A stretch of 64,000 nt of DNA. Origin: Cornus controversa. Its lineage: Eukaryota; Streptophyta; Magnoliopsida; Cornales; Cornaceae. The DNA lies in assembly GCA_026545225.1 (NCBI GenBank), contig CM048849.1, positions 45,656,336 through 45,720,335 of the forward strand, given 5' to 3'. The notes under the pieces were generated by a model, which worked only from the letters and a program-made list of their open reading frames with translations, did no database searches and had not been told where the DNA came from. Positions 4,841 to 49,055 of this stretch are shown in pieces; the first letter of the stretch is position 1; every line of letters starts with the position of its first letter. The translations under genes were made by a program, and so were the position numbers.

Positions 4841-5288
4841 GCTTACCTAATGGCTGATATTATCAAAGAAATACTCCATCGGTCCCAAAATTTTTGGTTA
4901 CTTTAAGAAGCCTGACTCACAATTTTTTTTTTTTTTTGAAGTTAAATACTTCTATTTTCTTGGTGCACAATCATCAAGGAATAAAAAGGATTGATAAAAA
5001 AAAAAAAGTAGAGTAATGCTGCGGCATCAAAGGCAAAATGAAGCAAACAAATCGGTACTTATAACTCATTCAATAAAAACACCATAGATATTTTATAATA
5101 ATTTGTGGAAATAATACCCAAAAAGGGACTTGGATAAAATTCTTACAAGGCCAGGCTAAGCCCAATAGGCCCATACTGCTACAAACTCGAGCAAGAACCT
5201 AAATATTTATAATCAAAGGCCCAAAAATTATTGTACTTCTTTTCAAACCTATCTATAGTAGTAAGAAATTTTAGTTTCTCCTCTTCCA

Positions 5289-6482
5289 CTACAAACAATT
5301 CTGTTTTAGCTCAATCAAACCAGATACTGTTCCACCAGCATTAGCACACGACGATTCAGCGGGTTGATTTTTGTATGTGAGCTTCACATCTTCCATTCTT
5401 AGGCTGCATGGATATTTTTTGCTACAGTCAAAATTCACAGCAACTTCAGTCGCCGATGATCCATGAATGTCTTGATATGTCACGTCGCTAATCTTCACAC
5501 CCGAGACCTAAGAAATGAAAACCAAGAACATATTAATACAACAAGTTCATTACTTTTCTACAAGAGTAAAATTTTATACTAATGGGCTAAATATAAGCAA
5601 AAGCCCATAGAGAATGGCCCAGAAAGGCCAAAAGGTAATAATCATCATGATATCCCCAATTTATACTAATGGGCTCAATCTAAGCCCATTTAAAATGGCC
5701 CTATAAAGTCTAGTGCTTTTCAAGTTATCTCCAATATATATATATATATGCTGGGCTGAATTAAAGAAAGCCCATATAGAAGGGCACAGTATGGCCCGAA
5801 AAGCCGATAATGCTTGTCAAGTTATCTACCATATATACCACTTTCACACATGATAAACAACTAACGTTGATGTGTGCGAATATTATTTAATTTTCATAAA
5901 TGCCCTTCAAAAATCATACCTGGCCGGGGCAGTTTTTCTTGTCGGGGCAATAATTCTGGGTGATGATGACGGGATTTTGGACATTTACCATAGTGGCATG
6001 CTGGAAAAGAACCCCTCTAACAAAACCATTGCTGGGCCTACCCCATGTCTTTATCCTCACACCATTCTCAGTACCGGTAAAAGTAACGGTTTTAACGGTC
6101 ACATTCTGCACACCAGCCTCTTGAGATTCCTTGCCCAAACTCCCAATACTGCACCAACATATATATATATATATATTAGCAAAACATATATACATATAAT
6201 CTATATAATTAAATAATATACAACACACATAACAATAAATAAAAAAATTCATAGATCTTTTAACACTATTTTACAAAAATGACTATTATGAAGCTCTTAT
6301 ACTTAGATTATCACTTTGGTCAACTATATATATATATATACACACACACACACATGTATAATTTTATATCATTCAAACTTAAATGAGTCCCTATTGTATT
6401 CCCTTTTCGAAAGATAAAAGGGAAGGCCTATCATAATATTACACAAAGTAATGACACTTCTATATAATGGATACTTGTATTA

Positions 6483-6530
<48 letters not shown>

Positions 6531-6852
6531 ACCTGATTCCATGACCAGGGCCGCAGGCAACGTTCTCAATCCACAAATTGGAGGTACCGGGGCCAATTGA
6601 GACGCAGTCATCACCAGTAGCGATCCTAGAGTTCAAGATAGTGACGCCAGACGATGACTGCACGTGAATCCCGTCGGTGTTGGGGCTGTTGCCGGAGGCC
6701 GAAACCTTCACACCTTGCACCATCACGTTGTGGCAGCCATTAATGACGATGTGAAACTTCTGACTATTTAGCGAAGTAAATCCATTGATCACTATGTGGT
6801 TCGAATTAGAAAATTCTAGTGACTGCACAAAAAAGAAAAACCACAGTTACAT

Positions 6853-6891
<39 letters not shown>

Positions 6892-8542
6892 TTGGAGCAA
6901 TAAGTTTACATAGACAAGTCTAATATCAGAGCATGCCTGCATAGACTAAAGCAATTCTATATGTGCGTGTATATATGTGTATCTGTATCTATATAGATAC
7001 AAAGAAGCACTATATCAAGCTTATGAAATCTCTATGAAATATTGAAAAAATATATATCTACATGACCCTAATGGAAGCTACCATAGGACAACATGGTTGA
7101 CCATTGAAGTCCCAAATTAGTGGACCACAATATATTATTTGTGTGTAAATCATGATCAAGTTTATGATTTCTCAATGAAATCCAGATAATATGGTACAGT
7201 GACCCACATGGAATTAACTAATATGGCATAACCAAAAGGTTGACCTTTTAAGCCCAAAAACAGTGGACCATAATTGGTCTGTGGTTTTATGCCAAATTGG
7301 CATTAAATCAGTTCCATAACCGTAACCCCACCTCGCAGTAAAAATATTTATTTCAAACTTTTTTCCATAACTGTCAATGCTTAATTGAGACTTCCCGTTT
7401 GGTAACCAAGAAAACAGGAGAAAAGGAAAAACGGAAAGCAAGATTCATTTGAAAAAATAAACCAGAAGTTTGAAATAGCCTAATTTTGGATGACTCATGC
7501 ACCTACCTTGTGAAATCACAATACTACCCGAATCTAATCACAGTTGACTATTATTGTATATAGAAATTGTGGCTATTTTAGTTCTCTTATCCAATGAAAA
7601 TTCTCATTTTTCTTTGATAAAAGAAAAAGATAATATATCATTAACCCATAACTATATTTTTAGAATAGTCTATGATGCACTCAGTGCACCATGCATCAGG
7701 TGAATCTTAGTCTGTGCATATTGTAAACACACCAATCAAATTCAACTGATATATTTACACTAAGACCCTGTTTGGATTGACTTTTGAAAAGTGGTTTTTG
7801 ACTTTTCAAGCTCAAAAGCCGTTTTGGAGAGTGTTTGGATTGGTAAAGGCGGAAGAAGTTCGGAGTCCAAAAAAAGCACTTTAAGGAAGCTGGGGTACCA
7901 GCTTCCCGACTTAGCTTCTACTTCTCTTTTTCTTCTGAGTAAAAGCCGAAACAAAAACTCTGCCAAACATAGACGTATATTATAGATATTTTCATATTTT
8001 TGATACCGGAGGTACCGATAACATATTGGTACATAAGAGAGTCCAAATTATGAAAATGTTAAAAGGGTGTTTTTGTCATTTCAACAACGTACCGTAGCTC
8101 CACTAGGACAATTCTTGCCGGAGGCCTTACAAGACCACAAACCAGTCCCTTGGCCGTCAAGGGTTCCACCGTGAATGGCCACTCCATTGACTCTCTCAAA
8201 AATTAGCCAGTTACCGGTGTTTCCTATGACATGATAATCCGAGGGCGCTACAAGAGTACCATCGATACGTATGGTGATGGCGCCATTCTTGCATGGCCCG
8301 GCAAAACGGACATTACCAAGCAAGTACCGGCCCGGTGGCACGTAGATAGTGGCCGGGCTGGGCGAGCCACAAGCTTGAGCCCATGCACTCAAGAAGGACT
8401 TGGTGGAGTCGGTCTTGCCATCAGGTTTGGCTCCTAAACTCAACACATTGATTGTATTATCGGCCTTTGCTGGTGATTGGGTAAAGAAGATGAAAAGAAG
8501 TGAAAAAACAAGAGAAGTGATCATGGGGTGCACCATTTTCAT
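5289..8542 (-). CDS. Exopolygalacturonase-like GH28 pectinase, copy A (4 exons)
   Basis: The spliced product is 395 aa from exons 8542-8093, 6822-6533, 6148-5920 and 5507-5289, all with GT-AG introns. Residues 1-27 form a signal peptide (hydrophobic core [13 protein letters not shown]), so the enzyme should be secreted to the cell wall. All four GH28 signatures are present: NTDG (198-201), GDDC (220-223), GHGIS (243-247) and RIKTW (278-282). The aspartates of NTDG and GDDC are the family's catalytic residues. Members hydrolyse alpha-1,4-galacturonosyl bonds of demethylated pectin. Length and exon pattern are typical of plant exo-PGs, but exo rather than endo action is inferred from family resemblance. 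The start ATG precedes the signal peptide, and a TATA box lies about 100 bp upstream. It is 96% identical to copy B and looks intact. Confidence 0.93.
7764..7974. mobile_element. Candidate MITE in PG copy-A intron 1
   Basis: The left end 'gaccctgtttggat' and the reverse-complemented right end 'gtctatgtttggca' form short imperfect inverted repeats of the 'tgtttgg' type common in plant MITEs. The 211-bp block is absent from the same place in copy B (near 32710), so it was inserted after the duplication or lost from B. No convincing target-site duplication is visible. Confidence 0.5.
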
Positions 8543-8643
8543 ATGAGAGAGAGAGAGATATATAGAGATATATGTGTGTATATATATCTAGAGAGAGAGA
8601 GAATGGAAGTTGATGGTGAGGAGTTGGAGCGGTTTGAGGAGGG

Positions 8644-8651
8644 TATTTATA
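8644..8651 (-). promoter_or_regulatory. TATA box of PG copy A
   Basis: TATAAATA on the minus strand, about 100 bp before the start codon. It is followed by a CT-rich (GA on the plus strand) leader and conserved identically in copy B. Confidence 0.65.
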
Positions 8652-8993
8652 GAGGATCTGAATGCATGTTTGAATAGTAAAAATTAAAATCAATCCAATC
8701 GCGCCGAAATTGGGAGCGAGGTATGTTGCTTGTACACATTTTTTCTTCTATGTCTTAATTACTGAAATGTCCTTGCTTTGGAACTGAAATTGCATTTATG
8801 AGTGTGTAATGTTTGTTCTCCTTGGTCCTACCAAAGATCTTTTGGCTCTGTTTGGTTTTCTAGATTTGGTCATAAGTGAAACAGAAAAGACTTTTTGGGT
8901 ATAGGAGAAGAGATAAATATTTAATTTTATATGTTGTTTAACTTTCATTTTTCTATATTCTCCAACCATTTATTTCTAATATTTTACTTTATT

Positions 8994-9038
8994 AATGTAT
9001 AAATGTAAATTTAATGTATAAATTTACATTTATACATT
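8994..9038. repeat. Perfect 18-bp-arm hairpin
   Basis: The left arm 'aatgtataaatgtaaatt' (8994-9011) and right arm (9021-9038) are exact reverse complements with a 9-bp loop. It sits where copy B instead carries about 0.9 kb of other DNA (33712-34605). Confidence 0.8.
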
Positions 9039-9612
9039 TTATACACGAAAGAATAACAAAATAATGATTATTAATCTCTCTTCTTTAATTTATTTTTAAT
9101 TATCGCCTAAATTTTATATCAAATATATATGAGATCACTTTTATTTTCTTTCATTCCAACTCAAATAAAGTCCTAGCTAATAAATTCAAAAATAACACCA
9201 ATGAATGAGCATAGAGCACACGTACGGGCGTTAAATATAATTATTATATATGTATATGGTTGCTTGAGATAAAAAGAATTTCGAAAGTCAGTTAAATTCA
9301 AATATATATGTGGTAGACGACCGTTAACGTGACATAACAAAACTAAAACATCCCCCAACCCTTCTCCGTTTATTCTGGTGCATGTTATGTGTAGCATATA
9401 TATATAAATATAGCATATATATATATAAATATATATGTATGTACGTACACAAACACATTATATCTGTGTATGAGCGTTTTGTGTTGCTTTAAGCGCAAGA
9501 TCAACGCCTCCATTCCTGCCCTTCTAGTCTATGACCGCCACCTCCGTGTATGTGAACCACATTTTCCTTCTTATTTACGTAAGTTACCAAAACATCTTTC
9601 ACATACATATTT

Positions 9613-9643
<31 letters not shown>

Positions 9644-10423
9644 ATGACTTTCAAACAACCCACTAACTGATTCTCATCCTTTTAAAATAGTGGAAATTGA
9701 TCCCCTCGTTTTATTGTAGTAATTAAAGGTAGGTCAGGTCCGTTTATGCCCTCTCTCTATCTCACAACGTTATGGTGGGCTCCACCGTGATCTTGTGATT
9801 TGCATGGCACTTTCTTGTAAGAATTGTCTTATTTATATTTATATTTATATTTCAAAATAGTATAAATTTTGAATTATTTTTTCAAGGCTTAATTTGTTAA
9901 ATTTTAAGTTTAATTGGAAATAATAAAATAATTTAATTTAAGAAAGGTGATATGAGAAATTTAAATGATACATATAATAAACATATGAATAGAAAATAAA
10001 ATCAAGGTAAAAAGATTTGATATAAAATCTACTCAGTTGATCACCTGAACTCTCAATTCTCGCTTAAAAAACTTGAGGAGATACTATTACATTACTGTCT
10101 TTGATATCTTAAGGAATTAGTTAAGGGTTGAATTTCAAGTTTATTCATGAATTAGAATACTCTTTGAAATCGGATAATTAAGCCTTGGTAGGAAACCTAT
10201 CTATGACATTCCTTTTCAATCTACTTAGACCAATCTGGCTCATTTTAATTCGAATTTTATCTTAGAGTCCAAACCTGTTAAAATATATATTGCTCAAATC
10301 CCAAATCAAACCCAATTCATTTTATGCCATAATTACATGCTAGTAAAATAGAAGAAAATGAATTTAAAAAGTTAACATGAAAAAAAAAAAGAAGAAAACA
10401 AAAAGGAAAACTTGTAATGATAA
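9039..10423. other. Gene-free DNA upstream of PG copy A
   Basis: AT-rich, and matched by copy B at about 34605-36820 apart from the insertion at 35448. No coding exon or RNA gene was seen. It holds short TA and CA microsatellites (about 9395-9435 and 9615-9645). Confidence 0.6.
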
Positions 10424-10549
10424 AGAAGAACCACCAAGGACGGTAGTCTAAGCGGTATTTCCTCGTCTTATAAAGTAGAAGGTTAAGAGTTCAAGTATTT
10501 ACAGGGGCAAAGTGAATGTGTGAGTTTATTTCCTGCCAAGATAAAAAAA
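10424..10549 (+). mobile_element. tRNA-headed SINE (family 1), copy A
   Basis: The tRNA-like head has an A-box-like 'tagtctaagcggt' and a B-box-like 'ggttaagagttcaagt'. A conserved 'gtgtgagtttatttcctgcc' body and an A-rich tail follow. The copy-B counterpart is at 36822-36928 and a more distant relative at about 50223-50330. It predates the duplication. Confidence 0.6.
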
Positions 10550-11696
10550 AATGTATTAATAAAAGGAGATAGAAGTGAGATAACTAATCTTGTGAAAGTA
10601 TGTAAATTTTGGCACTCTACAATTAATCTCACGCACTTTATCTTTTAAATTTAGCAACTGAAATGACTGTTTTGTCCTTTTTCTAATGTCTATGCAAATA
10701 AGTCTTATGTTTCATTTGTTTAGATAGAAATAGTAAGAAATGAAAAATATTTTAACATTTTTACAAATTTATATAGCAAAAAAGGAAAATTGTGGGAAAG
10801 TAACTTTTCTTAACTACCTAATTTTTCCTACAAAAAACACTAAATTTTTTTGATTTCTTGAGAAAATTATGTGAACTTACTATTATGCCTCCCTTTTTAT
10901 CTATCAAAATAAAACATTTTTATGCATATGTTTTTAAAATAACAGTCTCAATGTCCTACAAAATTAATTATTTAGATTTGTTACTCAATTATTGACCCTA
11001 GAGGGGGTGAATCGGGTCTTTAGCAAACAATGATAAATTATCCAATTGAAAATGTAAGACAATAAATAGGACAATAAATTTGTGCAAAAGTGTAAAAGAT
11101 ATAGAATTAACAAAGTACAAATTTAATGAGATGGAGATAGAGAAAATCAAACGCAATTGACACAAGCATGTAACGTGGTTCGGAATCCCCTACTCCACGA
11201 TTGAAGATCTCTCTTAAGATATTTTCAAATTCCCAATGGTTTCTCCTCGCAAATGGAGAGCAAACATTTACAAATGAGCTCACAAGCTCCTCTTTTTTCT
11301 CTTGCTAAATGAAGTCTTTCACTTAGTCTTCTACGGTTTCACCAACCCTTTACAAATTATAGAGAAGTAGATTTGTAGTAATATATATATATATATATAT
11401 ATCAAATATTTATATTGTACTAAACATTTTCCGATTCCACTTTTTAACATTTTCCTTAAGCATTAGGAGTTTGTGAACAAGGACAAAGCTGGACTTCCAC
11501 TAACTATATAGCCATACCATTATTCTTTGACTCTCCCCTAAAGCCCTCTGCTCTAAGCCGCATGTTAGCACTAAGGTTGATTGAATGGATTTGATGATTA
11601 CAACCAATTAATGCGAAGGAATTAACAATCCACCTGATATGTCGTGTAAACTCAAGTACTCAAAGACTTATATATGTAGACCTTGGATCATACTGA
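10550..11696. other. Gene-free DNA between SINE and CACTA-like end
   Basis: AT-rich sequence collinear with copy B (about 36960-38117). It includes the conserved phrase 'gaccctagagggggtgaat' and a (TA)n tract at about 11381-11402. No gene was seen. Confidence 0.55.
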
Positions 11697-12230
11697 CACT
11701 ACAAGAAATTTGATTTTTTCCCACGGAATATTTCATAGTAAAAAGTCAAAATTTCGTAGCAAAAGCTCTTTTGCCACGAAATATTTTCGTAGCACCAACT
11801 GTTGCAATATGTGGCGTCTCTAATTGTAAATTTTAACGAAATCATATTTCGTGGCAAGTTATGGGATAATAGCGACGGAAATATTTCGTCGTAATACCTA
11901 TTATTTGCTACGTTAAAATTTCATAGGTAATATAATTATTTGCTACGATAATATTCCGTCGCTAATTCTTGAGGAAATAATATTCCGTTGGAAATAAATG
12001 TATTTGCTACAATAATATTCCGTCACTAATTCTTATTATTTTTCACGAAATAGTATTTCGTTGGTAATAAATGTATTTGCTACGATAATATTCCGTCGCT
12101 AATTCTTATTATTATCCACGAAATAGTATCCCGTTGAAAATAAATGTATTTGCTACAAAATTTATTTCGTCGCAAATTAGTAATTACTACGAAAAAAACC
12201 CGTAGCAAATTATAATTATTTTTTTTAAAA
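11697..12230 (+). mobile_element. CACTA (En/Spm)-like left end with subterminal repeats
   Basis: The block begins 'CACTACAAGAAATTTG', a typical CACTA terminus. It continues with a dense array of subterminal repeats in both orientations ('tttgctacgataatattccg', 'ccacgaaatagtatttcgt'). The 'tagcaaat/atttgcta' and 'cgaaat/atttcg' words are the pattern expected for transposase-binding subterminal repeats. No matching '...cttgtagtg' right end was found before 13460 and no transposase is visible, so this is an incomplete, non-autonomous piece. It is absent from copy B at 38118. Confidence 0.7.
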
Positions 12231-12280
12231 AAATATAAAACAGTGATTATACAAATTTATATAATCACTATTTTATATTT
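12231..12280. repeat. 50-bp near-perfect palindrome
   Basis: The two 25-bp halves meet at 12255/12256 and pair at 23 of 25 positions, with no loop. The core is 'agtgattata...tataatcact'. It lies just inside the CACTA-like end. Confidence 0.85.
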
Positions 12281-12327
12281 TTTTCTTTTTTTTTTCAAGT
12301 ACCACTAATATCAAAAAAGCTCATTAT

Positions 12328-12330
<3 letters not shown>

Positions 12331-12390
<60 letters not shown>
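12331..12390. repeat. (TA)n microsatellite
   Basis: About 30 uninterrupted TA units. Confidence 0.95.
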
Positions 12391-12398
<8 letters not shown>

Positions 12399-13460
12399 CC
12401 TGTTATTTAATTTTCAAAGCATGACCATAACAAGAGTCAAAATTAACAACAAAAATAATGTTGATGCCATATTCCTAACAAGCATGCTACAAGTTCTGCC
12501 TATGCACCATTACATATATATACCCAAAGCATGTTAATTACATACATATACATACATTCCATAACAAAAGAAAGACTGTTATTACAACCAAAACAACTTC
12601 ATTACAAATACTCATGGCATATGCATATCACTAACATGCTTGATTAGAGCAACATAAGATGGTGATGAAGCAATTGGAGGCATTTGTGTGTGATAAAAAA
12701 TTCCTTGTGTATATGGCATTTCAAAAAGTAACTTTATTTTGGTCCAACCTGCATAAAGTACTACAAAATCATCACACACACATATTCAAGTTATTTCTTC
12801 ACATGATCAATTCTAGCAACATTATAATCAACAAATTATTTTAGGGTTGAGAACTTACTAAAATGAGTTTTATATCTTGTGAAGAAGTTAAGGCAACATA
12901 AAAAGGAGTAAACTCCTGAGGGAGAAGCCACACTCAAAGCGGAGAATAAACTCCTGAAATTTAAACAAAATAAGAGTAATCTATACATTAGAATCGATAA
13001 AAACTAGCATTTTTTTTCCTTGGTTTCTATATCTTTTTCCTTTTGCTATGTTTCTCTTTATATCTTTCTCATGACGATGACTTTAAAGATATATACAAGG
13101 CATTGATGTCTCTTGCTTCAGTTACCTCCTTGATCAACCTCAACATATATATAGCTAGTAGGAGAGTGATACATTTTATTAGGCATGGTGACCAAATGGC
13201 CAGGTATATATATATTGGATAGTGTCGATGCTGTGAATATGTGAATATATAAATTTCTGAATTAAACAAAATAAGAGAAATCTATATAGATATATGAGTG
13301 TATCATCTCACAGAAAGAATCATTTCTTTCCCTTCGATTCTGTATCTTTTTCTTTTGGATATATTCCATATATTTGTCACGTATCTTTGCATACACATTT
13401 CTTTCTCATGCCATTCACGAGCTCACTTTTGTGGCGGTGATGATAATGGGTGATGTCTAA
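12391..13460. other. Copy-A-specific DNA of unknown origin
   Basis: This is about 1.07 kb with no counterpart in copy B, where about 200 bp of unrelated sequence (38118-38330) takes its place. It contains two short repeats around 'aaataagagtaatctatac' and 'aaataagagaaatctatat' (about 12968 and 13269). It may be the interior of the CACTA-like element or a second insertion. No coding exon was recognised. Confidence 0.45.
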
Positions 13461-14277
13461 AGTACAAAAATTATCTCTTAAGAGAAAAATAATCATTTGA
13501 CTATGAGATTGTCACTATGTGCTTCAACAAGCTCATATCTTAAAAATACAAATGAATAAGAAATCAAGGAGATGCTTATATGCTCTAAGGACTTAGAATT
13601 GTAATATCCTATAAGGACAAACGTCTATATGCTTCATCATAATCCTTGGATCTATTTGTTATTTGCCATTGATCCTTGAATATTCTTTGAGTTTTAAATG
13701 AAATATGAATAGTACAAACTCTAGTAAAATATTAAATTAACACGTCAAGAGTTTGTTGTCATCAAAATTACATAAATGCCCTTAGGTTGAAGCCTTGGGG
13801 CTAACAAAGTTGTTCCACATTGTATAGTATGCCTATGGTATAAATGCAGTCCCCCTAATAAAATACCACCTTGCATTATAATGATATTATTATACCCATT
13901 TAAAATGCCATCTTGCATTATAATGATATTATTATTTTGTTGAATCACTCATTGCCGGTACCCAAGGCTGGATGTGAAAATGAGGTGGATTAGTGCAAAG
14001 TAGACAACCGACTGTAAAACTTGTGTCAAATCTTCTTGATGAATTTTTATTTAGTTGAAAAAAATTCACATGGCCGACCCCATTCATATGAGATTAAGGC
14101 AAAAGATGATGATGATGATATATCTATCAAGATGGGTGTAGAAATCAAAGCTCACAAGAGTATAGTTATGAATGAATCATGTGTTGAAGCTCAAATCTAT
14201 TGAATGAGAGTAAGTAACAATGAATGAGTGATAAATACTTGTTCAAATAGTAGCTCTATATCCATTGATGCAACTTT

Positions 14278-14321
<44 letters not shown>

Positions 14322-15428
14322 ATATCTCTTATGAAAATGGTTGTTGGAGGTACGTAGTTGTAATGCATTAAATACACAATATAGCCATTTGAATTCAAAC
14401 CCAGCCAAAAGCAGTATCCTGGTTCTTAAAGCAATCGTATGATCACCTTTGACCAAGCGCCTAAAAATATGTATGAAGTGTTTGAAATAATTAGAGAAAC
14501 ATTAAGCTCCACTCTCTCATTACATCAGACGCCTAATAACTAACTATTAGTCGTATAATGTAGCTTATTAAGTGCCTGATCCAAAGGACTAGTCGTCTGA
14601 TTTAGGTGCATTTAAAAGCTCCAAACATACTGTGATTATCAGGGGCCTGGTGCTTAATGAGAAGTCTCTAATTTTTTTCCTGAACATTCAAGATCAATCC
14701 TTTTAAGTATAGGTCAAGGCACAAATCAACTTAGGTCTATATAGGGTGAATCATATTAATTTAATACCTATTTTTAAGGGATAAAAAACTAAGAATGTGA
14801 TATGTATGATATGCATTATGGTCCTATTGTCTTAGTCATAGATATTGAATTTCAAACAAGTTATTCAAAAATAACTTTAGCAATTGAATTATAGCTCTCA
14901 CCATATTATACTACCCCATAACATTCTTCATTTGAATTAAAGTCTTTTGGCATTGGAATAAAATTTATTTAGAAGCATATTCTCAAGTAGATGGGTTAGT
15001 ACATAACACCTTCATTGGTTTGTTATCGTTAAAATTACTAGATTGCCCTTAGGTTGAAACCTTTGGGTCAACAAGATTCTTATATTGCTTTTAGGTGATC
15101 AATTATATTTTCTTGTAACTTTCATCTTATCCAACCCATGAAATAGTAGTTCCCACAACTTGCTTGAAAAAGTTTCATGCTAACCAAATGCGTGCTAGAA
15201 AATTAATTTTCCTTTTCTTCACTTCAATTTCTTTCACTTTCATTTTTCACTATTAATTTTCATTAAACCAAGCGGATCCTTTGACTTCATTTAGGAGATG
15301 AAGGGTAAACTTGTCATTTCAATTATTAAAATGAAAAGTTGGAGTGCTCGAGTCAAATGTGGAGTGCTAATATCAGCTCCCTAAATTTATGTTCAATTTT
15401 GTTATTAATCGGATGGAAAATGATAGAT
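13461..15428. other. Gene-free DNA collinear with copy B
   Basis: It matches about 38330-40311 of copy B. It contains an (AC)n microsatellite at 14280-14312, lost in B, and a local duplication of 'ccttgcattataatgatatt' at about 13869 and 13911. No gene was seen. Confidence 0.55.
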
Positions 15429-15559
15429 AGGCAGAATTGTTAAGCAGAATTGTCAGACCTACACTTTCTCATCCATAGGATGTATGTGGTGAGTGCATGT
15501 GGTAGGACCTACCACATGCATCCAATGGATGTAAAAGTGTAGATCTAACAATTCTGCCT
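15429..15559. mobile_element. Hairpin MITE 'aggcagaattgt', copy A
   Basis: Long inverted arms start 'ggcagaattgt' and pair with 'acaattctgcc', with 'cctacacttt/aaagtgtag' inside them. Almost the whole element folds back on itself. The cleaner 118-bp counterpart is at 40312-40429. Copy A has an extra partial repeat of the end (about 15430-15453). Confidence 0.75.
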
Positions 15560-16682
15560 AAATAGCATTGTCGTAATTGGATACACGGTTTGTTAATAGT
15601 TAATTCTTTGTTAAAGAATTTAATGTGAAAAGAGATTAACAAACAATGATTTGAAAAATAAAAATAAAAAGTAGGAAAAGATAAATAAAATATGAACAAA
15701 GAAATAGTAGACAATTAGGTCTTTGAGTTTTTGTTAAAGAGAAAAAAAGATATTAAAGCGAGAAAAAAATAGAGGGAAGAAAAATAAAAATAATAATGTA
15801 AAAAATTTAATAGTATGTAAATAATATCTATTATGAAATTAGATAATATATATATATATATAACACATTATGATTTATATTCAGATAATTATTAGATGGG
15901 ATCAACCATAATTCATATATATATATTTTTTGTCCCAATAAGATTAACTCTTACAATGTACTTGAAAGACTTGAACCATCTACCCTTCAATTTGAAAGGA
16001 GAGAAAAGAGCACTGAATCACAGGCCTCAGTGATATTTTGAATGTTTCAATCCATATTCCAATATCATTTTGGAATTAAGATCCGAGCATTACCCTAGAT
16101 GGGAAACAAAAAAAAAACTGTCTCAAGTCAAATTTGGATAGCCAAGGAAGGAGAAAAAAGTCAAGGTAAGTGAACTCTCTCATTGTGTTTGGAAAGATAA
16201 TAAAGAAATAAAAAAAATGTTTTGTTATGTAAATGAGAGAGCAAATATGGGTTCAATTATTGAAAAAATAGAGACAACTAGGTAATAAAAATTAATGAGC
16301 ATTAGTTTAAATGGTATGATCCCTCATTTCCAAAGAAGAAATTGAGTATTTGAGCCCTATTTAAAGAAATATGGTGAGTTTGTATGCATTTGTGGAGCTT
16401 TTAGAAAAATAATAATTCAATATATATATATTAATTAATGATTTCCGTATCTTTCCTTCTAAATCGTTTCACTGTCATTATTTGAGGGGTTAGTATTTAG
16501 TAAGAAACCCTTACTTCTCCCCCTATTAAGAATCCTTGCTCCATTTGTTTTCTTTCAAATTTTTATAAGCTTTCAAATATTTCAAAATGGATTCCCTTTT
16601 CAAAAATTCCAAAACCTCTTCTTTTTACCATGTATAGAAACGACACCTTCATATATATATAAGTAAAAAATACTAATAAAAG
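15560..16682. other. Gene-free DNA collinear with copy B
   Basis: AT-rich and matched at about 40430-41600. It contains short TA tracts (about 15848 and 16422). No gene was seen. Confidence 0.55.
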
Positions 16683-16925
16683 ACCAAGGGCGTTGTAGTC
16701 TACTGGTACTTCCTCTAGTAGAATGTCGGGATTTGTATTTGAGGTTAGTCACATATTTCATGACAGGGGCTATCGCTCCCAAGTTTCAATCGCAGATTAA
16801 CGACTTGGAAGCAGACCCACCTCAAATTCACAAACTAAATTTGTGACTGGGGCTACTGCTCCCACACTCCAATCACAGATTGGTGACTTGGAAGCAGACT
16901 CGCCCCAAATTCGTGTACTCAATAT
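16683..16925 (+). mobile_element. SINE-like unit with internal 85-bp tandem repeat, copy A
   Basis: A tRNA-like head ('gttgtagtctactggtactt') resembles SINE family 1. Two units of about 85 bp follow, each with 'ggggctaYcgctccca' ... 'gacttggaagcagac' (about 16766-16845 and 16846-16925). The counterpart in copy B is at 41602-41845. Confidence 0.5.
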
Positions 16926-35438: not shown

Positions 35439-35447
35439 AAAATTAAA

Positions 35448-37786: not shown

Positions 37787-37823
<37 letters not shown>

Positions 37824-40311
37824 AAGATTTATATTGTACTAAACATTTTTCGATTCCACTTTTTTACGTCTTTCTTAAGCATTCGGAGTTTGTGAAGAAC
37901 GACAAAGCTAGGACTTCCACTAACTACATGGCCATCCCACTATTCTTTGACCCTCCCCTAAAGCCCTCTGCTCTAAGCAGCATGTTCTCTCTTAGCACTA
38001 AGGTTAATTGAATGGGTTTGATGATTACAACCTATCAATGTGAAGGAATTAACAATCCACCTAATATATCATGTAAACTCAAGTACTCAAAGACTTATGT
38101 AGACCTTGGATCATACTAACAATTCAGCACAAAAGGTTCAACACATGGGGTAGTACAGGTGAGTGTGTGCTAGGATTTGAATTGTAAAATAGTATATGTA
38201 TCTAGTGCATTGAAAATTCAACTTTAAGACACTGTAATTAAATTAGGACCAAAACTAATCGTATATGCATATTATACAAGGACCCTAGAATGACTTGACC
38301 TTTTAGACTTAGATGAAATATCTCTTAAGGACAAAATAATCATTAGACTATGAGATTGTCATTATATGTTTCAACAATTTCATATCTTAATAATACAAGT
38401 GACTAAGAAATCAAAAAGATGCATATATGCTCTAAGGATTTAGAATTGCAATATTCTATAAGGACAAACGTTTATGTGCTTCATCTTGATCCTTGGATTT
38501 ATTTGTTATTTGCCATTGATCCTTGAATACTCTTTGAGTTTTAAATAAAATATATATAGTACAAACTATAGTAAAATATTAAATTAACACGTCAAGAGTT
38601 TGTTGTCATCAAGATTATCTAAATGTCCTTAGGTTCAAGCCTTGGGGCTAACAAAGTTGTTCCACATTGTATAGTATGCCTATGGTATAATTGCAGTCCC
38701 CCTAATAAAATATCACCTTGCATAATAATGATATTATTGTACACATTTGAAGTTGAATAACTTTTATATTATTATTATTTTAATTTTTTTATAATTTTCA
38801 TTGTTAACTATAAAAGTTTTTTTTTTTTTTGAATCACCCATTACCGATACTCAAGGCTGGATGTGAAAATGAGGTGGATCAATGCCAGGTAGACAAACGA
38901 CTATAAAACTTGTGTCAAATCTTCTTGATGAATTTTTATTTAATTGGAGAAAATTCAAGTGGCCGACCCCATTCATATGAGATTAAGGTAAGGATGATGA
39001 TGATGATATATCTCTCAAGATGGGTGTACAAATCAAAGCTCACAAGAGTATAGTTATGAATGAATCACAAGTTAAAACTCAAATATATTGAATGAGAGTA
39101 AGTAACAATGAATGAGTGATAAATACTTGTTCAAATAGTAGTTTTATATCCATTAATGCAACTCTGACACATATATATAATGTCTCTTATGAAAATGGTT
39201 ATTGGAGATGGTTGTAATGCATTAAATACACAATATAGACATTTGCCAAAAGCAGTCGCCTAGTTCTTAAAGTAGTCGTATGATCACCTTTGATCAAGCG
39301 CCTAAAAATATGTATGAAGTGTTTGAAATAATTAGAGAAACATTAAGCTTCACTCTCTGGTTACATCAAGTGCCTGATAACTGAGTATCAGTCGTATGAT
39401 GCAGCCCATTAAGTGCCTGATCCAAAAGATCATTTGTTTGTTACAACCCATTAGGCGCTTGATCCAAAGGATTAGTCGTCTAATTTAGGCGCATTTAAAA
39501 GCTCCAAACATACGGTGATTATCAGGCTCTTGGTGCTTGATGAGAAGTCACCAAATTTTTTCCTGAACCTTCAAGATTAATCCTTGTAAGTATAGGTCAA
39601 AGCACAAATCAACTTGGGTCTATATAGGGTGAATCATATTAATTCAATACCTATTTTTAAGGGATAAAAAACTAAGAACGTGATATGTATGAGATGTATT
39701 ATGGTCCTATTGTCTTAGTCATAGATATTGAACTTCAAACAAGTTATTCAGAAATAACTTTAACAATTGAATTCTAGCTCTCACCATATTATATTACCCA
39801 TAACATTCTTCATTTGAATTAAAGTCTTTTGGCATTGTTGTAAAATTTATTTAGAAGCATATTTTCAAGTAGAAGGGTTAGTGCATAACACCTTCATTGG
39901 TTTGTTATCGTTAAAATTACTAGATTGCCCTTAGGTTGAAACCTTTGGGTCAACAAGATTCTTATATTGCTTTTAGTTGAACCATTATATTTTCTTGTAC
40001 CTTTCATCTTATCCAACCCATGAAATAATAGTTCCCACAACTTGCTTGAAAAAATTTCATGCTAATCAAATGCGTGCTAGAAACTTAATTTTCCTTTTCT
40101 TCACTTCAATTTCTTTCACTTTCATTTTTCACTAATAATTTTTATTTAACCAAATGGATACTATGACTTCATTTAGGAGATGAAGGGCAAACTTGTCATT
40201 TCAATTATTAAAATAAAATGCTGGAGTGCCTGAGGTCAAATGTGAAGTGCTAATATTAGCTCCCTAAATTTATGTACAATTTTGTTATTAATCGGATGAA
40301 AAATGATAGAT
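36960..40311. other. Gene-free DNA collinear with copy A
   Basis: It matches 10550-15428 without the CACTA-like insertion. About 200 bp at 38118-38330 ('aattcagcacaaaaggttca' onwards) is present only here and is probably ancestral sequence lost from A. It has a (TA)n tract at about 37791-37820. No gene was seen. Confidence 0.6.
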
Positions 40312-40429
40312 AGGCAGAATTGTCAAACCTACACTTTCTCATTCATAGGATGCATATGGTGAGTGCATGTGGTGGGACCTATCACATGCATCAAATGAAT
40401 GTAAAAGTGTAGGTCTGACAATTCTGCCT
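40312..40429. mobile_element. Hairpin MITE 'aggcagaattgt', copy B
   Basis: The ends 'aggcagaattgtcaaaccta' and 'taggtctgacaattctgcct' are inverted repeats, and the 118-bp element forms a near-complete hairpin. It is orthologous to 15429-15559. Confidence 0.82.
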
Positions 40430-41560
40430 AAATAGTATGGTCCTAATCGGATACACGATCTGTTAGTGGTGTAATTCTTTGTTAAAGAATTTACTGTTAA
40501 AAGAGATTAACAAACAATGATTCAAAAAATAAAAATAAAAAGTAGGAAAAGATAAATAAAATATGAACAAAGAAATAGTAGACAATTAGGACTTTGAGTT
40601 TTTGTTAAAGAAAAAAAAAACATTAAAGCGAGAAAAAAAATAAAGAGAGGGAAGAAAAATAAAAATAATAATGTAAAATTTTTAAAAGTATGTAAATAAT
40701 ATCTATTATGAAATTAGATAATACATATATATATATATATATATAACACATTATGATTTATATTCGGATAACTATTAGATGGGATCAACCATAATTCATA
40801 TATATATTTTTTTGTCCCAATTCTTACAATATAATTGAAAGACTTGAAGCCTCTACCCTTCAATTTGAAAGGAGAGAAAATAGCACTGGATTATAGGCCT
40901 CGGTGATATTTTGAATGTTTCAATCCATATTCCAATATCATATTGGAATTAAGATCCGAGCATTACCATAAATGGGAAACAAAAAAAAAAAACTGTCTTA
41001 AGTCAAATTTGGATAGCCAAGGTAAGTGAACTCTAGCTCTCATTGTGTTTGGAAAGATAATAAAGAAGTAAAAAAAATGTGTTTTATTATGTAAACGAGA
41101 GAGCAAACATGGGTTCAATTATTGAAAAATATAGAGACAACTAGGTAATAAAAATTAATGAACATTAGTTTAGATGGTATGATCCCTCCTTTCCAAAGAA
41201 GAAATTGAGTATTCGAACACTATTTAAAGAAATATTGTAAGTTTGTATACAATTGATTGAGCTTTTAGAAAAATAATAATTCAAAAAAATAATAATATTA
41301 ATAAATGATTTCCCTATCTTTCCTTCTAAATCCTTTCACTATCATTATTTGAGGGGTTAATATTTAGTAGGAAACCCTTACTTCTCCCCTATTAAGGATC
41401 CCTGCTCTGTTTGTTTTCTTTCAAATTTTTATAAGCTTTCAAAATATTTCAAAATGGGTCCCCTTTTCAAAAATTCCAAAACCTCTTCTTTTTACCTTGT
41501 ACAAAAACGGCACCTTCATAGAAGTGTTCGTATTTCCTAGTGTATTTGTTAAAAAGAAAG

Positions 41561-41601
<41 letters not shown>
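40430..41601. other. Gene-free DNA collinear with copy A
   Basis: It matches 15560-16682. It contains (TA)n at about 41562-41599. No gene was seen. Confidence 0.55.
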
Positions 41602-41604
<3 letters not shown>

Positions 41605-41845
41605 CCAAGGGCGTTGTAGTCTATTGGTACTTCCTCTAGTAGAATGTCGGGATTTGTATGTGGGGTGACTCATATAATTCGTGACAGGGGCTATCTCTCC
41701 CAAGCTTCGATCGTGGATTGACGACTTGGAAGTGAACACGCCTCAAATTTGCAAACTCAATTTGTGATTGGGGTTACCACTCCCAAACTCCAATCACAGA
41801 TTGGTGACTTGGAAGCGGACTCACCCTAAATTCGCGTACTCAATA
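41602..41845 (+). mobile_element. SINE-like unit with internal tandem repeat, copy B
   Basis: Orthologous to 16683-16925, with the same tRNA-like head and two units carrying 'gacttggaag'. Confidence 0.5.
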
Positions 41846-42021
41846 TTTGAGTTCAAGAATTCATTTGAAAAATTCATGAATTGTGTGCAAATTAGGAATT
41901 ATGTAGACTAATGAATTAAAAAAGCAGATGAAAAGTTGCTTCTTGGGATAAGGAATTAACCAATTACCTATTTCGTGAAAGAAAGGAAATTTACCAATCA
42001 ACTACTATCACAATTATAAAA

Positions 42022-43483
42022 AGGTAAATATCACTGACATTCCCTGAGGTTTGATCTTATTTCAAATAGAGAGAAACTTTGCTTATAACTATCATATAAA
42101 CCCAAATGATATTTATGTCCCTAACGGTGTTAAAAATGTGTGAAATATCATATATGCCCCCACTTATTTAATGCAATTTAATAAAAAAATTGAAAAAAAA
42201 ATGTCAAAAGACAAAACTATTCCTAAATTCTCTCTCCCCAACCATTAACCCATTGATTTTCTCTCTCATCACCGATCTCTGCTCCATCATCTTTTCCTAG
42301 CCCAACTTGTATACGGCAAATCAACCACACCCCTCACATTCCATAGCTCAAACCCTAATAACAAACCAGAAAGCCAATTTTTTGACAGAAATGTTGGATT
42401 GGTTGCAGGTGTTCCGGCCACGGTGGTTTTTGCAGTGGTGGTGTTAATGGTGGGCAGGATAACAAACTAAAGACCTAAGGGGCTAAGATAGTGGTGATGT
42501 TAAGGGTTGGCGTTGATATTTCGATAATGGAGGATTGATTGATGTACGTTTGGGTTTCAATTAAGGCTTGTGGTGGCTTCCGATGGTTCCGTTTAATCGA
42601 AGAGGTTGTGTATGGTGGTTGCTGGTTTAGGGTTTGGATTGTGAATGGGCCTTCGAGGTTTGTCGAATTTGGGTTTCGCCATAGAGGTTTGTCATGATGT
42701 TGGCAGTGGCGATGGTGGTTTCGGCACGGGTGAGTGTTCGGGTTTCGTGATTTGGGTCTTAGGGTTGGTTGTCGATTGGGGGTTTATAGTGGCAATTGGC
42801 TTGAGTTAGGTTACGATTGGAGTTCGACAGTGGTGGTGGTGGTTCTGTGGACAGTGGTGGTGTTTCTGTGCATACTGGTGGTGGTGGTGGTGGTTTTGCT
42901 GCCTTTGGTGGTGATGGTGGTTATGTGGACAGTGGTGTTGGTTTTGTGGAATTGTGCGTGGAGAAAGATGAACAGTATGTATGTATGTATGTATGAATGT
43001 ATGTGTGTGTGTGTGTGTGTATAATATATATAATAATACAAATATAAAAATTTATGGACATAAATAAAAATATATAAATATATATGCTAAGAAAATACAA
43101 ATATAACAAGAATAAAATATAAAGTACATATATATGAAAATATTTATAAAAGTATTGTATATAAATATATAATAATATAATATAGATGATATAAAAATAT
43201 ATATATATATATAAAACTAATAATAATATAAATATACATTAAAACTTTTAAGGATATTATTTGCAAAGAGTAAGTAAAAGGGTAGTTAGGTAATTTACTA
43301 CCTCATATAAAAGGTCAAAGGGTATCAAAATCTTTTTGCATAGTGTTAGACATACCTATACACGGTTTAGAGTCTCTTTGACAGACGGTGCAAAACGTTT
43401 GAATTTCTACAATCACTTTTAAACAAAGTTTCTCTCCGTGTAAAATAAGTCTAAATTACATAGGATGTCAGTGATATTTACTT
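42022..43483. mobile_element. MULE-like non-autonomous element, copy B (1.46 kb)
   Basis: The ends 'aggtaaatatcactgacat' and, reverse-complemented, 'aagtaaatatcactgacat' are flanked by identical 'attataaaa' (42013-42021 and 43484-43492). It is orthologous to 17102-18584, so it was inserted before the segmental duplication. The interior is G-rich with a GGT array at 42826-42950. No transposase was seen. Confidence 0.85.
42826..42950. repeat. GGT-rich array inside MULE-like element, copy B
   Basis: Shorter form of the array at 17918-18084. It is followed by (TATG)n and (GT)n microsatellites (about 42976-43021). Confidence 0.85.
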
Positions 43484-43492
43484 ATTATAAAA

Positions 43493-44331
43493 TATAACTA
43501 CTCAATAAAATTAATTAATAAAACCAATAATAAATAAATAATTGCTTTTAAATAGTCTTATATTAATTTTTTTAATAAAAATAGTATTTAATAAATTAAA
43601 ATGATACTATATTAAGTGAAATAATTACACAAAAGTAAATTTACAAATACTCTAAAAACGCTCATACTAGCAAAGATTTTTAGATTTTGATTCTCTCTCT
43701 CTCACCCATTGAGTGAGTGCGTTTCTTCCTAACTTAAAAATAAAATAAATTAAATTAATAGTAAAAGAGGTTTGTAAATTAATGGAGTTGGAAGAGGCAG
43801 TTTAAGAATTTACTCATTTCAACGTGGGTTTTGGACGTGACAAGTGGAGTGAACAACGGAGAAGAAATCGGCATCCCAATGGCCAGAAATGGTGTATTTG
43901 TGGGCCCTCTAACTCTTTACATTCCATTTCTTCTACAGTTTTTAACTTTTTGGGATTCAACTATGGCCTAAATAACTAACAAAATGAAACAACCTTTGGA
44001 AGCAAAGTGTGTAATGCTTCAGTCATAAAGGTAACCCATATTGCCCAACATCATGTAACACTCTTAACACTTTATTTAGTAATAATTTGAAAATGTTTAA
44101 ACATGTGTACAATGTACATAGTCAATATTTACTTCTTTACGATAATTTATGGGATCAAGACCTCCTTGTCACTCACGTTATTATACTATATAGGTGATAC
44201 TTTTACCTTTCACTCATGTTATTATACTATATATGTGATATGTTATTATACTATATCTGTGATATTTTTACCTTTCACTCATGTTATTATACTATATATG
44301 TGATACTTTTTCATTTTGTTGTTTCTTCTAC
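43493..44331. other. Gene-free DNA with short tandem repeats
   Basis: Collinear with 18594-19338. Repeats of about 50 bp ('cactcatgttattatactat') number about four here, at 44168-44308. No gene was seen. Confidence 0.6.
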
Positions 44332-44811
44332 GGGGCAAACTGCACCTCTACTTTCAATCTTTTGCACAAAACTCTCTTGCAAAAAACGTTTGCGTAAAAC
44401 TCCCTAACTATTTGATTTGTTGCAAAGAGACGTTATAATGACAAAAATACTCTTTAATATAATTTTTTTGAAAATACTTTGGAACAATTCTCAAATTTTC
44501 TTAAGGAAAAGAAAATCTAAAATGAAAATGGTTTTAAAGAAAAAAAATTATATATTTTTTATATTAAGAGGCATTTTCTTTATTATAACATCTTTTTGTT
44601 TAAATAACTATTTTTTAAAAATTAAAAAGGGAAAAAAAACTAAAATGAAAATTTATTTTTTAAAAATTTATATTAAGGGACATTTTTGTCATTATAACAT
44701 CACTTTGCAACAAAAAAGATATTTTGGAGATTTTATGTCATTTTATTTTTTTTGCAAAGGAGTTTTGTGCCAAAGATTTTAAAGTATGAGAGGGTTTTAT
44801 GCAATTTGCCC
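44332..44811. mobile_element. 0.48-kb TIR MITE (gggcaaact family), copy B
   Basis: Orthologous to 19340-19822, with the same inverted ends and the same imperfect 9-bp flanks. Confidence 0.7.
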
Positions 44812-45199
44812 TTTTTCTATAACATATATATCGGGGCGGATCCTCTTGGTAAATATGTAAAATGCTGCCAACAAATTTCATATATTTCTTCCAATAAATG
44901 CACAAATGTCATTTTGACATAAATTTTTTCTAAAATATTTTCTTCAAAAAACACCTAAAAATTTTACTTACCAGCAACTACTAAAGCCCTGTTTCGAATA
45001 GCTTCCTAATATCAAAAGGATTTTATTGATAATGTCTTCATAAAAGAAATTTCATTAGAAGGAATTTTGGAGGAAAAAGACATTTGGCGAGTGTATTTTT
45101 TAAATATACTTTAACTTTTAAATTATTTTTTCTTGACAATATTATCTCTTATATTTAACAGCGATTGCAACCCTTAGAAAGCGTGGAGTTCACAATAGA
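44812..45199. other. Deletion-junction region in copy B
   Basis: At about 44915-44935 the copy-B sequence jumps from the equivalent of about 19930 to about 22590 of copy A, with 'acataa' shared near the join. It therefore lacks the tandem repeat, the Harbinger-like element and a SINE head. No gene was seen. Confidence 0.65.
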
Positions 45200-45440
45200 G
45201 GTGGAGATGATGGTAGTGGAAGGCAGTAATGGAGGTGGTGGTTGCGGTGGAGGCAATGATGGTGGAAGGCGGCGACAACGGTGGCGGTGGCAATAGTGGT
45301 GGTGGTGGGGGTGGAGGTGGAGATGGTGGTGGTGGCAACGACGGTAGAGATAGCAATGGCGATGGTGGTGTTGGTGGTAATGATAATGGTGGTGCTGGTG
45401 GAGATGGCAATAGTGGTGGTGGTGGAAGACAACGGCGGTG
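45200..45440. repeat. GGT-rich array, copy B (expanded)
   Basis: About 240 bp of 'ggtggtggtggcaacg'-type repeats, G-rich on plus, against about 90 bp in copy A (22862-22952). The Gly/Val frames on plus and His/Pro/Thr frames on minus are repeat artefacts. Confidence 0.9.
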
Positions 45441-45962
45441 GAGGAACAAATGACCAAGAGATAATATTGCATAATCTTCTTAATATATAAAAAGTAGATG
45501 GACAAATTAGTAAAATACAAATTTACTTAAAAAGAAAATTTGGCTTTCTAAAAGGAGGTTCTAAAGGCAATATTTTTACTTATCTGAAATGGACTTTCTA
45601 ACCACCGACTTCTTCGAAAAGGCCTTTACATATGTGTAACCAAACGTTACATTTTTTTTAAAAAAAGAAATTTAACGCTTGGAAGGACTTTTTGGGGCTT
45701 AGGAAAGCTCCCCAAACAGGTACTAATTTTTTTCCATAATATTTCATTCAAAAAACACCTGAAAATTTTACTTTCCAACAAAAGTTGTTCCTTTATTTCT
45801 CACGTTCCCATTATGCCTACGTCAGTTTCTCTCCACTCTTCTCCACAGACTCCGAAGATGTGAGTTTTCTTATTCTCTAAATTTTTTATATTTGTATATG
45901 TGCATAAAAAATTGATTCCTTTTATATTTTTTTTTCTTAATAGTTCAAAATGGTTACGAGTA

Positions 45963-46022
<60 letters not shown>

Positions 46023-47467
46023 GGTAATATTTGAACAATATTTTTTTTATAATCAAATTTTATCATATCAACGGTATATGATAGTTTAATCATTAATTCA
46101 TTTATTTTTTTAGTATTTGAAAACATAAAGGTAATTTTGGTAAGCAAAATCATTTTCTTTTCACTTTCATGCTACTCAAATTAACAAAATAAAATTTTTC
46201 TATAACTTTTTTGAAATCATTTCATTCTAATCAAATGCACGTGAGAAAGTTAATTTTTTTTTTCTATTTCTTTTCTTTTTACTTAGATTATATCTGACCG
46301 AACGAAACTCTAGAGTTGGGAGGTGACGTGGGAAGAGAGTTTAAAAAGTCGTCTCAGATGAATAATAAATATATAAATAACTATTCTCTCCATCATGGGA
46401 CAGGTGTAGAATATGAATACCTCCGACCAACCATTGACATTCCTACAGGTAAATAGAAGAAAGATAAGATCATTTCGTCTTGTCATCTATATATATATAT
46501 ATATATGGAGTACAATTTTGTGTCAAAAAGTGATTGGCTTCGCCTGTTTCTTCAAATTTGAAGGATGCATTCTGTTGACCCAATAAGCAAACATTCCATC
46601 ATGACCCATCCCCTTCCTTGTTATTTAGTCGTTTCAAATATCTTCGCATGATTTCAAGGCACGATTTTGGGGGTTAATCTGCAACTTTGGCTAGAATGCC
46701 ATTTGATTCAATCAAGAACCCAAAAGGCTAAGGAGATCCACTATTTACAGGGTGAACAGTGGATAACTGCTTGGATATATATATATATATATATTAAGTT
46801 CATGCATTTGATAGTAAACGTGCTAATGTTAACGTTGAAAAGTTAATGGAAAAATTAATGTCAAAAAGTAGCTAGATAGGTCATTGTAGGATAGTTGGAT
46901 ACATATATATTTATATATAGCATGTTCAACCATTGATTTATAGTTTTTTTATTCACTTGCTTGGTTAGGAGATGAAGAGAAGAAAAAAAATGGGAAGACC
47001 ACGTGAATCACTATTTTAGCAAGGACTTGTTTCTAACCCTGGAATCATATTCACAGTTCACAGTTTCATATATATATATATAAACACAATATATATCTAT
47101 ACATGCATGTATATCCATGTCAGTTATATAGATACAAATAGAGCAAATAGAGTTAGTTATATATGCATGTCAGGGGAACTACTTACAAAATAAAAACACG
47201 ATGTTTCTTATATGATCGAAGAGACAAGTATGGATGGTCTTTTTGTCAACAATATTAATTTCTTAGCTGGAGCTATTTAATTTATAAATCCTAAATCTTG
47301 ATTCTTCCATGTCTTTGATACATAAAGAATTAAGCCGCTTTTTATGTTAAGGGAGACTTCAAGTTTACATTATTCATGAATGCACGCTGCCCTGTTTCAG
47401 GGCTTGTTTCAGGCAGTTTTTGTTTATGCAGCTACCATGCATGTGATTTATTTGACCTTCAATTCTC

Positions 47468-47520
<53 letters not shown>

Positions 47521-48684
47521 TATGTGAAGTTAAATTACATTCAATTTGAAAACAGCTCCTTCATGTGAAGGTGAATATGCCCCTATATCTAATAATTTAC
47601 AGACTTTGTAACGTGCTCGTGCATTAGACTATTCTTTTAGTATAAATTACACTTATTGATAAGGGTGGGACTTGGGCTGACCAAAGGGTTACCCAGTCAA
47701 ATCCAAGATTCTAACACTTCTGTCCATGCTTAACTCAAGTCCCAAAGAACCCATCAAATCTCAACCTGCCATTTCACAAAACTTTGGTAGAGGTTTAGTC
47801 TTTAATTTTTTAGTTTTTTATAGCACATTAGATTTTCTAATAACTTGGGCATTTGGTAACTGTTTTTGTTACAAATTCGATGAAAAACAAATGACAAAAA
47901 CATGTTTGCTAGTATTGTTAAGTTTTGCACAACACTGCATATATGTTAAAAAAAAAAAGGCCAAATCCAGAAGGAAAAAAGAAATCACTCTCACTTGATT
48001 TTGCCCTTACAGTAGAATTACTAGATTTTTTTTTAAAAAAAATACCAACACTTGGTAATTAAATACTATTTATTCTTACAATGTTCCAAATATATATATA
48101 TATATATATATATAAGCTACTATATATATATACATATATTTACTTTAAACATAAGTTACCAAATTGTTTCGCAATGAATCATAGCACGAAAAAAACTACT
48201 TCTTCGTATGAAATGAAATAAGAAAAGGTAAAAAAAGGCGGTTACCAAACCACCGTAATTAGCTCGAAAGCAAAAGTGGGCTACATCATATTCATGCAAA
48301 GAAATAATTACGTCGTGATTAAGGCAAGCTGCTCATTATTTCAAAGTCAATTCATTGTTGGAAAATTAATCACACTATATAGTGTTCAACTAAACATCAC
48401 TGTAACAACTTTGATTAATTAATGGGGACTAACCTAACTTAATTCACCACATGACTATATATATATATATATATATATATGAGAGTCTATTCGTTAACTA
48501 TAACTAACAATGAATGGCTAAATGCATGAGAATATATGTTCCTTTTAAACTTTAGAGATGAGATTCTTTGATTATCACTTTTCAAAATAAGTATCCAAGT
48601 TAATCCCTTCAAGGACTTAAATGAGGTTGGTCAAAGGAACATATGGACCGTACCAACATAGGGCTACTATATTTATATTTGTGG

Positions 48685-48738
<54 letters not shown>

Positions 48739-49055
48739 TTCTCTGTACTATATACCCCACTCTTTTCAATTACCACCCTTTTTAATGTAGGTTGTTGGGC
48801 ATCATTTGGCAATTTTATTTGGAGTCATGACAACAATGTTATATTCCATATTTTATTTATTGGAATTGGGAGCTATATTAAAAGTTGGAACCCTACCGAC
48901 CCCTCAAACAACAAAAAAAATTACATCTAACTCCTACTTTTTCCTGCAAAAGACAAATAAGTCCTATAATTTCCATTCAAAAGTTGATATATAAGCCAAA
49001 TTATTCTATTTGAATATTTAAATACATCTAATTTTTTTCTATTAGCAAATAGATT
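45441..49055. other. Gene-free distal part of copy B
   Basis: It is collinear with 22953-29556 but holds one copy of the nested R unit (about 45890-46900) and none of the copy-A-only MITEs. It has (TA)n tracts at about 45965-46015, 47471-47518, 48089-48113 and 48687-48721. About 150 bp at 48480-48660 differs from copy A. No coding exon was recognised. Confidence 0.6.

Follow-up and report, generated by a model that had tools for sequence, protein, structure and literature searches.

The 64-kb window analysed here (C5:45656336-45720335 of the Cornus controversa genome; GC 32%, no N) contains two adjacent copies of one long segment, A and B, each carrying an intact polygalacturonase gene. This arrangement very probably arose when an ancestral stretch was duplicated once in tandem by homology-independent joining, with later gene conversion between A and B upstream of the genes. 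Seen directly are the sister relationship of the two copies, two outer boundaries that are matched elsewhere in the genome, one new joint between the copies, and two intact genes. The ancestral stretch would have been duplicated once, head to tail, with its left end at ATT/GCTTACC (the slash marking the break) and its right end inside an inverted-repeat transposon. The joining would have been independent of homology, through a repair pathway that we infer to be either sister-chromatid end joining or template switching during replication. Later, at about 13% of the divergence of the duplication, gene conversion would have carried a 1.2-kb upstream stretch from one of the two copies to the other, as an outgroup test suggests.

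Copy A occupies 4841..29556 (24,716 bp, plus strand) and copy B 29557..49055 (19,499 bp, plus strand), as delimited by a chain of BLAST matches and a global alignment of A against B. The BLAST self-alignment of the window gives a direct collinear chain from 4838/29554 to 29387/48969, and a more sensitive comparison extends its right end (29466-29556 against 48965-49055, 91 columns, 95.6%). The copies are thus adjacent, collinear and in the same orientation, and the repeat between them is far above chance. In the global alignment they share 16,938 aligned columns at 89.0% identity, a figure that takes in badly aligning stretches such as A 27579-28502; 7,778 positions are found only in A and 2,561 only in B (10,339 in total), and 16 gaps reach at least 60 bp. 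Divergence between A and B is 7.6% over 15,669 columns with windows of more than 30% difference masked, and 10.3% over 13,865 non-coding columns with only the gap surroundings masked. Neither the window nor the 20 kb on each side of it showed a third unit; the flank-to-unit matches listed at E 1e-15 number eight, each of 78-149 bp. A first-pass annotation of this DNA had described a two-copy direct tandem segmental duplication with these same limits and had named self-alignment for collinear blocks as the check; that check was run and, together with the global alignment, bears the description out.

The genome also holds older relatives of the unit. Our search covered 771.7 Mb in 61 contigs, and 40 of 378 candidates were scored, so that counts are lower bounds; at least four related loci, one of them a fragment, were found at C5 35.58-35.61 Mb and C8 19.99 Mb. 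The window is matched piecewise by P1 (C5:35554444-35585668, reversed), with the first match beginning at 3665 (left flank) and the last ending at 48652 (copy B). P2 (C5:35605253-35614092) and the C8 locus at 19.99 Mb are complete copies, and P3 (C5:35595423-35599768), between P1 and P2, is a polygalacturonase fragment with only parts of exons 3 and 4. P1, P2 and C8 retain all four exons with no internal stop, and P2 and C8 have no stop codon at the position where A, B and P1 have one. A tree of the five copies, built from 12 of the 13 blocks tried (4,174 columns; B matched only part of the block that was left out), has the form ((A,B),(P1,(P2,C8))) with support of 100, for A and B as sisters, and 99. 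A and B are therefore each other's closest relatives when set against the three complete copies of the same genome, and further copies may exist. Over these columns, which are common to all five, A and B differ at 6.5%, and either differs from P1, P2 and C8 at 9.1-10.0%. On the codons common to all five, synonymous divergence (dS) is 0.167 between A and B and 0.23-0.26 between either of them and the others. The coding stretch measures 1,188 nt in A and B and 1,191 nt in P1, P2 and C8, so that A and B are one codon shorter. Together, the tree, the shorter coding stretch and the dS values indicate that A and B form a younger pair within an older dispersed family.

The related loci also suggest which of the three boundaries is new. 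An ATT is common to all three (4838..4840 on the left, 29554..29556 in the middle and 49053..49055 on the right), so each breakpoint is ambiguous by 3 bp; the boundary words and positions given in the first-pass annotation are exact to the base, with only ATT in common. P1 is contiguous over the left boundary, reading ACTTTTAATAAACAAAATTGCTTAC across the point equivalent to 4841, and A's left edge is therefore ancestral. The right boundary is contiguous in a dispersed element, since 48965-49072 matches C2:51551147-51551252 at 84%; the right overlap is thus likewise ancestral and lies inside a transposon through which a relative aligns. With the left boundary present in P1 and the right one in a relative of the transposon, the middle junction is best read as the new one, a truncated transposon joined to the start of the unit with a 3-bp ATT overlap and no filler bases.

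The element at the right boundary (48915..49526) is an inverted-repeat transposon derivative resembling a miniature inverted-repeat transposable element (MITE). It was delimited by a self-inverted match and by a full-length relative at C2:51550982-51552201, and its left arm lies within copy B and its right arm in the flank. The relative aligns through 49055, and its far half aligns to 49068-49548. Copy A ends in the left part of the same element (29345..29556, outer end approximate), cut at the new junction. The arm at the end of A, compared in inverted orientation with the right flank, scores 64 (maximum 38 in 200 shuffles), and the right-arm core (49371..49447, minus strand) is an 88% inverted match to 29381-29456 of copy A. 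Elsewhere in the genome, 29370-29556 or parts of it have dozens of matches, many with an inverted arm match at most about 1 kb away, and matches of the arm at the A end stop at the junction or a few bases from it. An 83-bp part of the arm (29382..29464) is kept in A and was lost from B between two TTATAA words (29382 and 29465). The right boundary would accordingly represent one decayed element, cut at the middle joint and attached to the unit start, as a single tandem duplication predicts. Near the left end of each unit, a Stowaway-like terminal sequence (4872 and 29588), with 2-3 mismatches to a 16-base consensus, was left unused; no partner end for it was found at up to 3 mismatches.

The two genes lie near the left ends of their units, gene A at 5289..8542 (minus strand; exons 8542-8093, 6822-6533, 6148-5920 and 5507-5289) and gene B at 29996..33240 (minus strand; exons 33240-32791, 31494-31205, 30846-30618 and 30214-29996). 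Each has four exons, GT/AG introns and no internal stop and encodes 395 amino acids, and the earlier claim of a full polygalacturonase gene in each copy therefore holds. The Pfam profile of glycoside hydrolase family 28 (GH28, PF00295) matches residues 58-380 of protein A (E 1.4e-87) and 58-381 of protein B (E 9.4e-89), over a near-complete 1-318 and 1-319 of its 324 positions. Both proteins contain NTD, GDD, GHG and RIK, which we take to be the catalytic motifs, and the closest solved structure to the copy A protein by sequence is the plant polygalacturonase ADPG2 (chain 7b8b_A, E 3.5e-84). Genes A and B are thus predicted to encode pectin-digesting GH28 polygalacturonases. A tblastn search of the window with the A protein (E<=1) gave no matches besides these two genes. 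A light look, by eye, at open reading frames of at least 75 amino acids (92 in the window) revealed no further coding gene within the units, and the two unit reading frames other than polygalacturonase exons that were scanned against Pfam gave no match. Within intron 1 of copy B, a 216-bp stretch is repeated (32035-32250 and 32397-32612; 94% identical) and adjoins a perfect 38-bp tandem repeat; among the matches listed for copy A, this stretch has one only.

The coding sequences of A and B differ at 58 of 1,188 bases and the proteins at 15 of 395 residues. By the NG86 method, dS is 0.174 (bootstrap 0.124-0.239) and nonsynonymous divergence (dN) is 0.017; YN00 gives a dS of 0.138. A dN/dS near 0.1, which is an average along two branches, indicates constraint, and because dS is 0.17 and dN 0.017, we regard both copies as old and constrained and a recent artefact as unlikely. 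A rate of 6.5e-9 would place a dS of 0.17 at about 13 My. At a faster 1.65e-8 per site per year, the rate used for cereals in the accessible part of a paper on maize (PMC8509529), the same dS corresponds to about 5 My. The duplication is probably millions of years old, and 5-13 My should be taken as a range only.

Within the units, one upstream stretch is far more similar between the copies than its surroundings. A divergence scan along the alignment found 12 substitutions in 1,000 columns at A 26374-27524 against the 7.6% background, with a log-likelihood of 44 (at most 19 in 60 block shuffles). The tract spans 26384..27560 in A and 46463..47470 in B (right end approximate) and holds 13 substitutions over 1,018 columns. 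The DNA here is apparently non-coding and lies upstream of the genes, by about 18 kb for gene A and 13 kb for gene B. When P1 serves as outgroup, 803 columns from three parts of the tract show four substitutions unique to A, three to B and 53 to P1, as compared to 96, 110 and 184 among the 2,960 columns of five control blocks. This leaves both the A and the B branch eight-fold short in the tract (Fisher P 5e-10), and the P1-unique rate is unchanged (P 0.68). The control total excludes three blocks run alongside: block 19432, which is intermediate (A 7, B 8, P1 32 of 427), block 18857 (A 4, B 7, P1 8 of 181) and, to the left of the tract, a stretch (A 8, B 10, P1 72 of 206) over which P1 probably fails to align. 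A second outgroup is provided by an internal repeat of copy A that overlaps the tract, with 30 substitutions unique to the first repeat copy (a1), two to the second (a2) and three to B among 330; further left of the tract, the same repeat gives 24, 21 and 12 of 320.

Because A and B resemble each other about eight times too closely there, with normal divergence in P1, the best reading of the 1.2-kb tract is interlocus gene conversion between A and B after the duplication, a pattern seen for substitutions, with indels lacking the same drop. Constraint or a mutation cold spot would fit the choice of the tract as an extreme and its undiminished indels, but P1 has accumulated changes there at its normal rate (53/803 against 184/2,960), as has the internal repeat of copy A where it overlaps the tract (30/330), and we consider this explanation improbable. 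A local assembly polishing error could also mimic a conversion tract.

Several observations weigh against the duplication history proposed here. Beyond the left edge of the unit, agreement with P1 extends for only 19 bp before the P1 sequence departs, and P2 and C8 lack the left-boundary stretch and give no information on it. At the other end, the P1 match ends 403 bp before the right boundary, at 48652, and is uninformative there, and poly-T at that boundary softens the alignment with the dispersed element, the portion past the boundary being mostly T. The outer boundaries thus read as ancestral, and the middle joint as derived, on 19 bp of P1 on the left and on a poly-T-softened match on the right. 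The 3-bp overlap is not above chance: an overlap of at least 3 bp occurs in 9.2% of random endpoint pairs within 500 bp and in 7.2% of window-wide pairs (20,000 draws per test). The conversion tract was picked as the least divergent stretch, and it shows no shortage of indels: it has 12 over 1,018 columns, compared with 16-32 for four stretches of 1,750-3,750 columns that overlap in part. About half of these 12 were judged by eye to be within or next to AT microsatellites.

As the overlap is at chance level, it does not identify the repair pathway, and blunt end joining or template switching would fit as well as microhomology. The first-pass annotation had proposed joining with micro-homology and without exchange between long repeats; it was right about the kind of event, since no endpoint homology rises above shuffles, and it overstated the microhomology, 3 bp being shared by 7-9% of random pairs. 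Non-allelic homologous recombination, an unequal exchange between long repeats on either side of the unit, is, in the part of PMC3744419 available to us, the prevailing model for tandem direct duplications, but long homology is found neither at the endpoints nor at the joint. The left and right endpoint regions share no repeat beyond 3 bp: the 500 bp preceding the start, compared with 641 bp surrounding the right end, give a best score of 25, within the range of 100 shuffles (top 28), and the left flank (1-4840) has no match in the right flank (49056-64000) at E 1e-3 with the low-complexity filter; such an exchange is very improbable. A transposon-end reaction at the right boundary, in which the inverted-repeat element would undergo alternative or reversed-ends transposition, draws on the presence of that element and on the tandem direct duplications that reversed-ends transposition yields in maize, as described in the same source (PMC3744419, in part). 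However, the joint is internal rather than terminal, about 210 bp from the element's approximate outer end in A, and the ATT overlap is 3 bp as opposed to the 8-bp target-site duplication given there for Ac/Ds. With neither a joint at the termini nor such a target-site duplication, we give this reaction little credence. A sharper form of homology-independent joining, and one compatible with it, is that a hairpin or cruciform break or a fork stall at the element set the right endpoint, which was then joined elsewhere. The position of this endpoint between the two arms is suggestive, but inverted repeats make up 4.3% of the window, so that one of two endpoints would fall inside one by chance about 8% of the time, and the strand folding of the element is unremarkable (z -1.22, equalled or bettered by 2 of 20 shuffles). 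We therefore treat the hairpin origin as possible, though the less likely case. The combined proposal that a foldback transposon provoked the break at the right end and that conversion later acted outside the gene, in non-coding DNA about 18 kb upstream in A and 13 kb upstream in B, is somewhat more doubtful still.

An assembly artefact, with two haplotypes or two homoeologous segments placed end to end, would likewise leave one arbitrary joint with a small overlap, and A and B are sisters, as alleles would be. Usual allelic differences, however, are far below a dS of 0.17 and the roughly 7-10% non-coding divergence seen between A and B, and the copies further differ by 10,339 positions present in only one of them and by the 16 long gaps. 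The joint is also consistent with the outgroup, and a haplotype misjoin is unlikely. A homoeologue misjoin is improbable too, though divergence alone would not rule against it. Overall, the dS of 0.17 and the 16 alignment gaps largely, though not wholly, answer the concern, and we hold an artefact to be most improbable.

The two units have also changed in other ways. An A-only block (19934-22583) has TAA at both flanks, with a single TAA remaining in B, and includes a 1.4-kb GGT-rich minisatellite array (20744-22152). An insertion in A was considered for this block and dropped; because P1 carries the first part of the block in place, loss from B is the likelier explanation, possibly a clean one. 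One segment occurs twice in copy A (23465-24502 and 25904-26747) and once in B, and among these three copies no pair is clearly closest outside the conversion tract. A B-only insert (35448-36374) is flanked by the 9-bp direct repeat AAAATTAAA, has partly similar inverted ends and an empty site in A, and has fragments of a relative at C5:35599936-35600580; we take it to resemble a Mutator-type MITE inserted after the duplication. Near the unit end, about 100-120 bp (28902-29110 against 48373-48502) are inverted between the copies, and A carries a 79-bp tandem repeat within this region. Hairpin-like (MITE-like) palindromes lie at 19357-19797, 24504-24710, 28050-28352 and 44333-44811, the first and last being one palindrome in its two copies. 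Searches with Rfam at gathering thresholds and a tRNA scan gave no matches. In the right flank, ankyrin-repeat exons followed by a PGG-domain exon (54964-61134, plus strand) probably belong to one ankyrin membrane protein gene, and 62877-63227 (minus strand) matches the Ig-like domain of inositol-polyphosphate 5-phosphatase (Pfam PF23755).

The conversion tract, the ancestral or derived polarity of the boundaries and the related loci are new beyond the first-pass annotation. Comparison with other copies from this genome singles out the new boundary among the three, which lets an old joint be read with some confidence, and a pair of genes with about 16-21 kb of upstream DNA each is suited to studying expression drift between copies of an enzyme gene. 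The general view of how duplications originate is left unchanged. Tandem growth is familiar in this family: in the parts of these papers available to us, maize GH28 includes 24 tandem pairs dated to 0.5-18 My (PMC8509529), and in Arabidopsis and rice 24 closely linked polygalacturonases were inferred to come from tandem duplication, with expression differing more in tandem pairs than in block duplicates (PMC1794546). The pair described here resembles such clusters in maize and Arabidopsis in having neighbouring GH28 genes with Ka/Ks below 1. It differs from them, as far as those excerpts go, in its 20-25 kb unit, where a single gene is accompanied by about 16-21 kb of upstream DNA, and in its base-readable joint, for which they offer no joint sequences for comparison. 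Like the products of reversed-ends Ac transposition in maize, the window contains tandem copies in direct orientation and a transposon close to one end of them, but its joint lies inside the element and lacks the 8-bp target-site duplication (PMC3744419, in part). The same partial source names break-induced replication and template switching as duplication routes, and duplications by inverted-repeat transposons are described for animals in a portion of PMC8277862. One new joint with a small overlap and no filler also likens this case to end-joining or template-switch duplications, with nothing distinctive about it, and from one old joint these two pathways cannot be told apart. Duplications through end joining or template switching with little overlap are a known kind of event. 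The tandem pair is accordingly a well-resolved member of a common class, a clean but ordinary case of plant gene-family growth.

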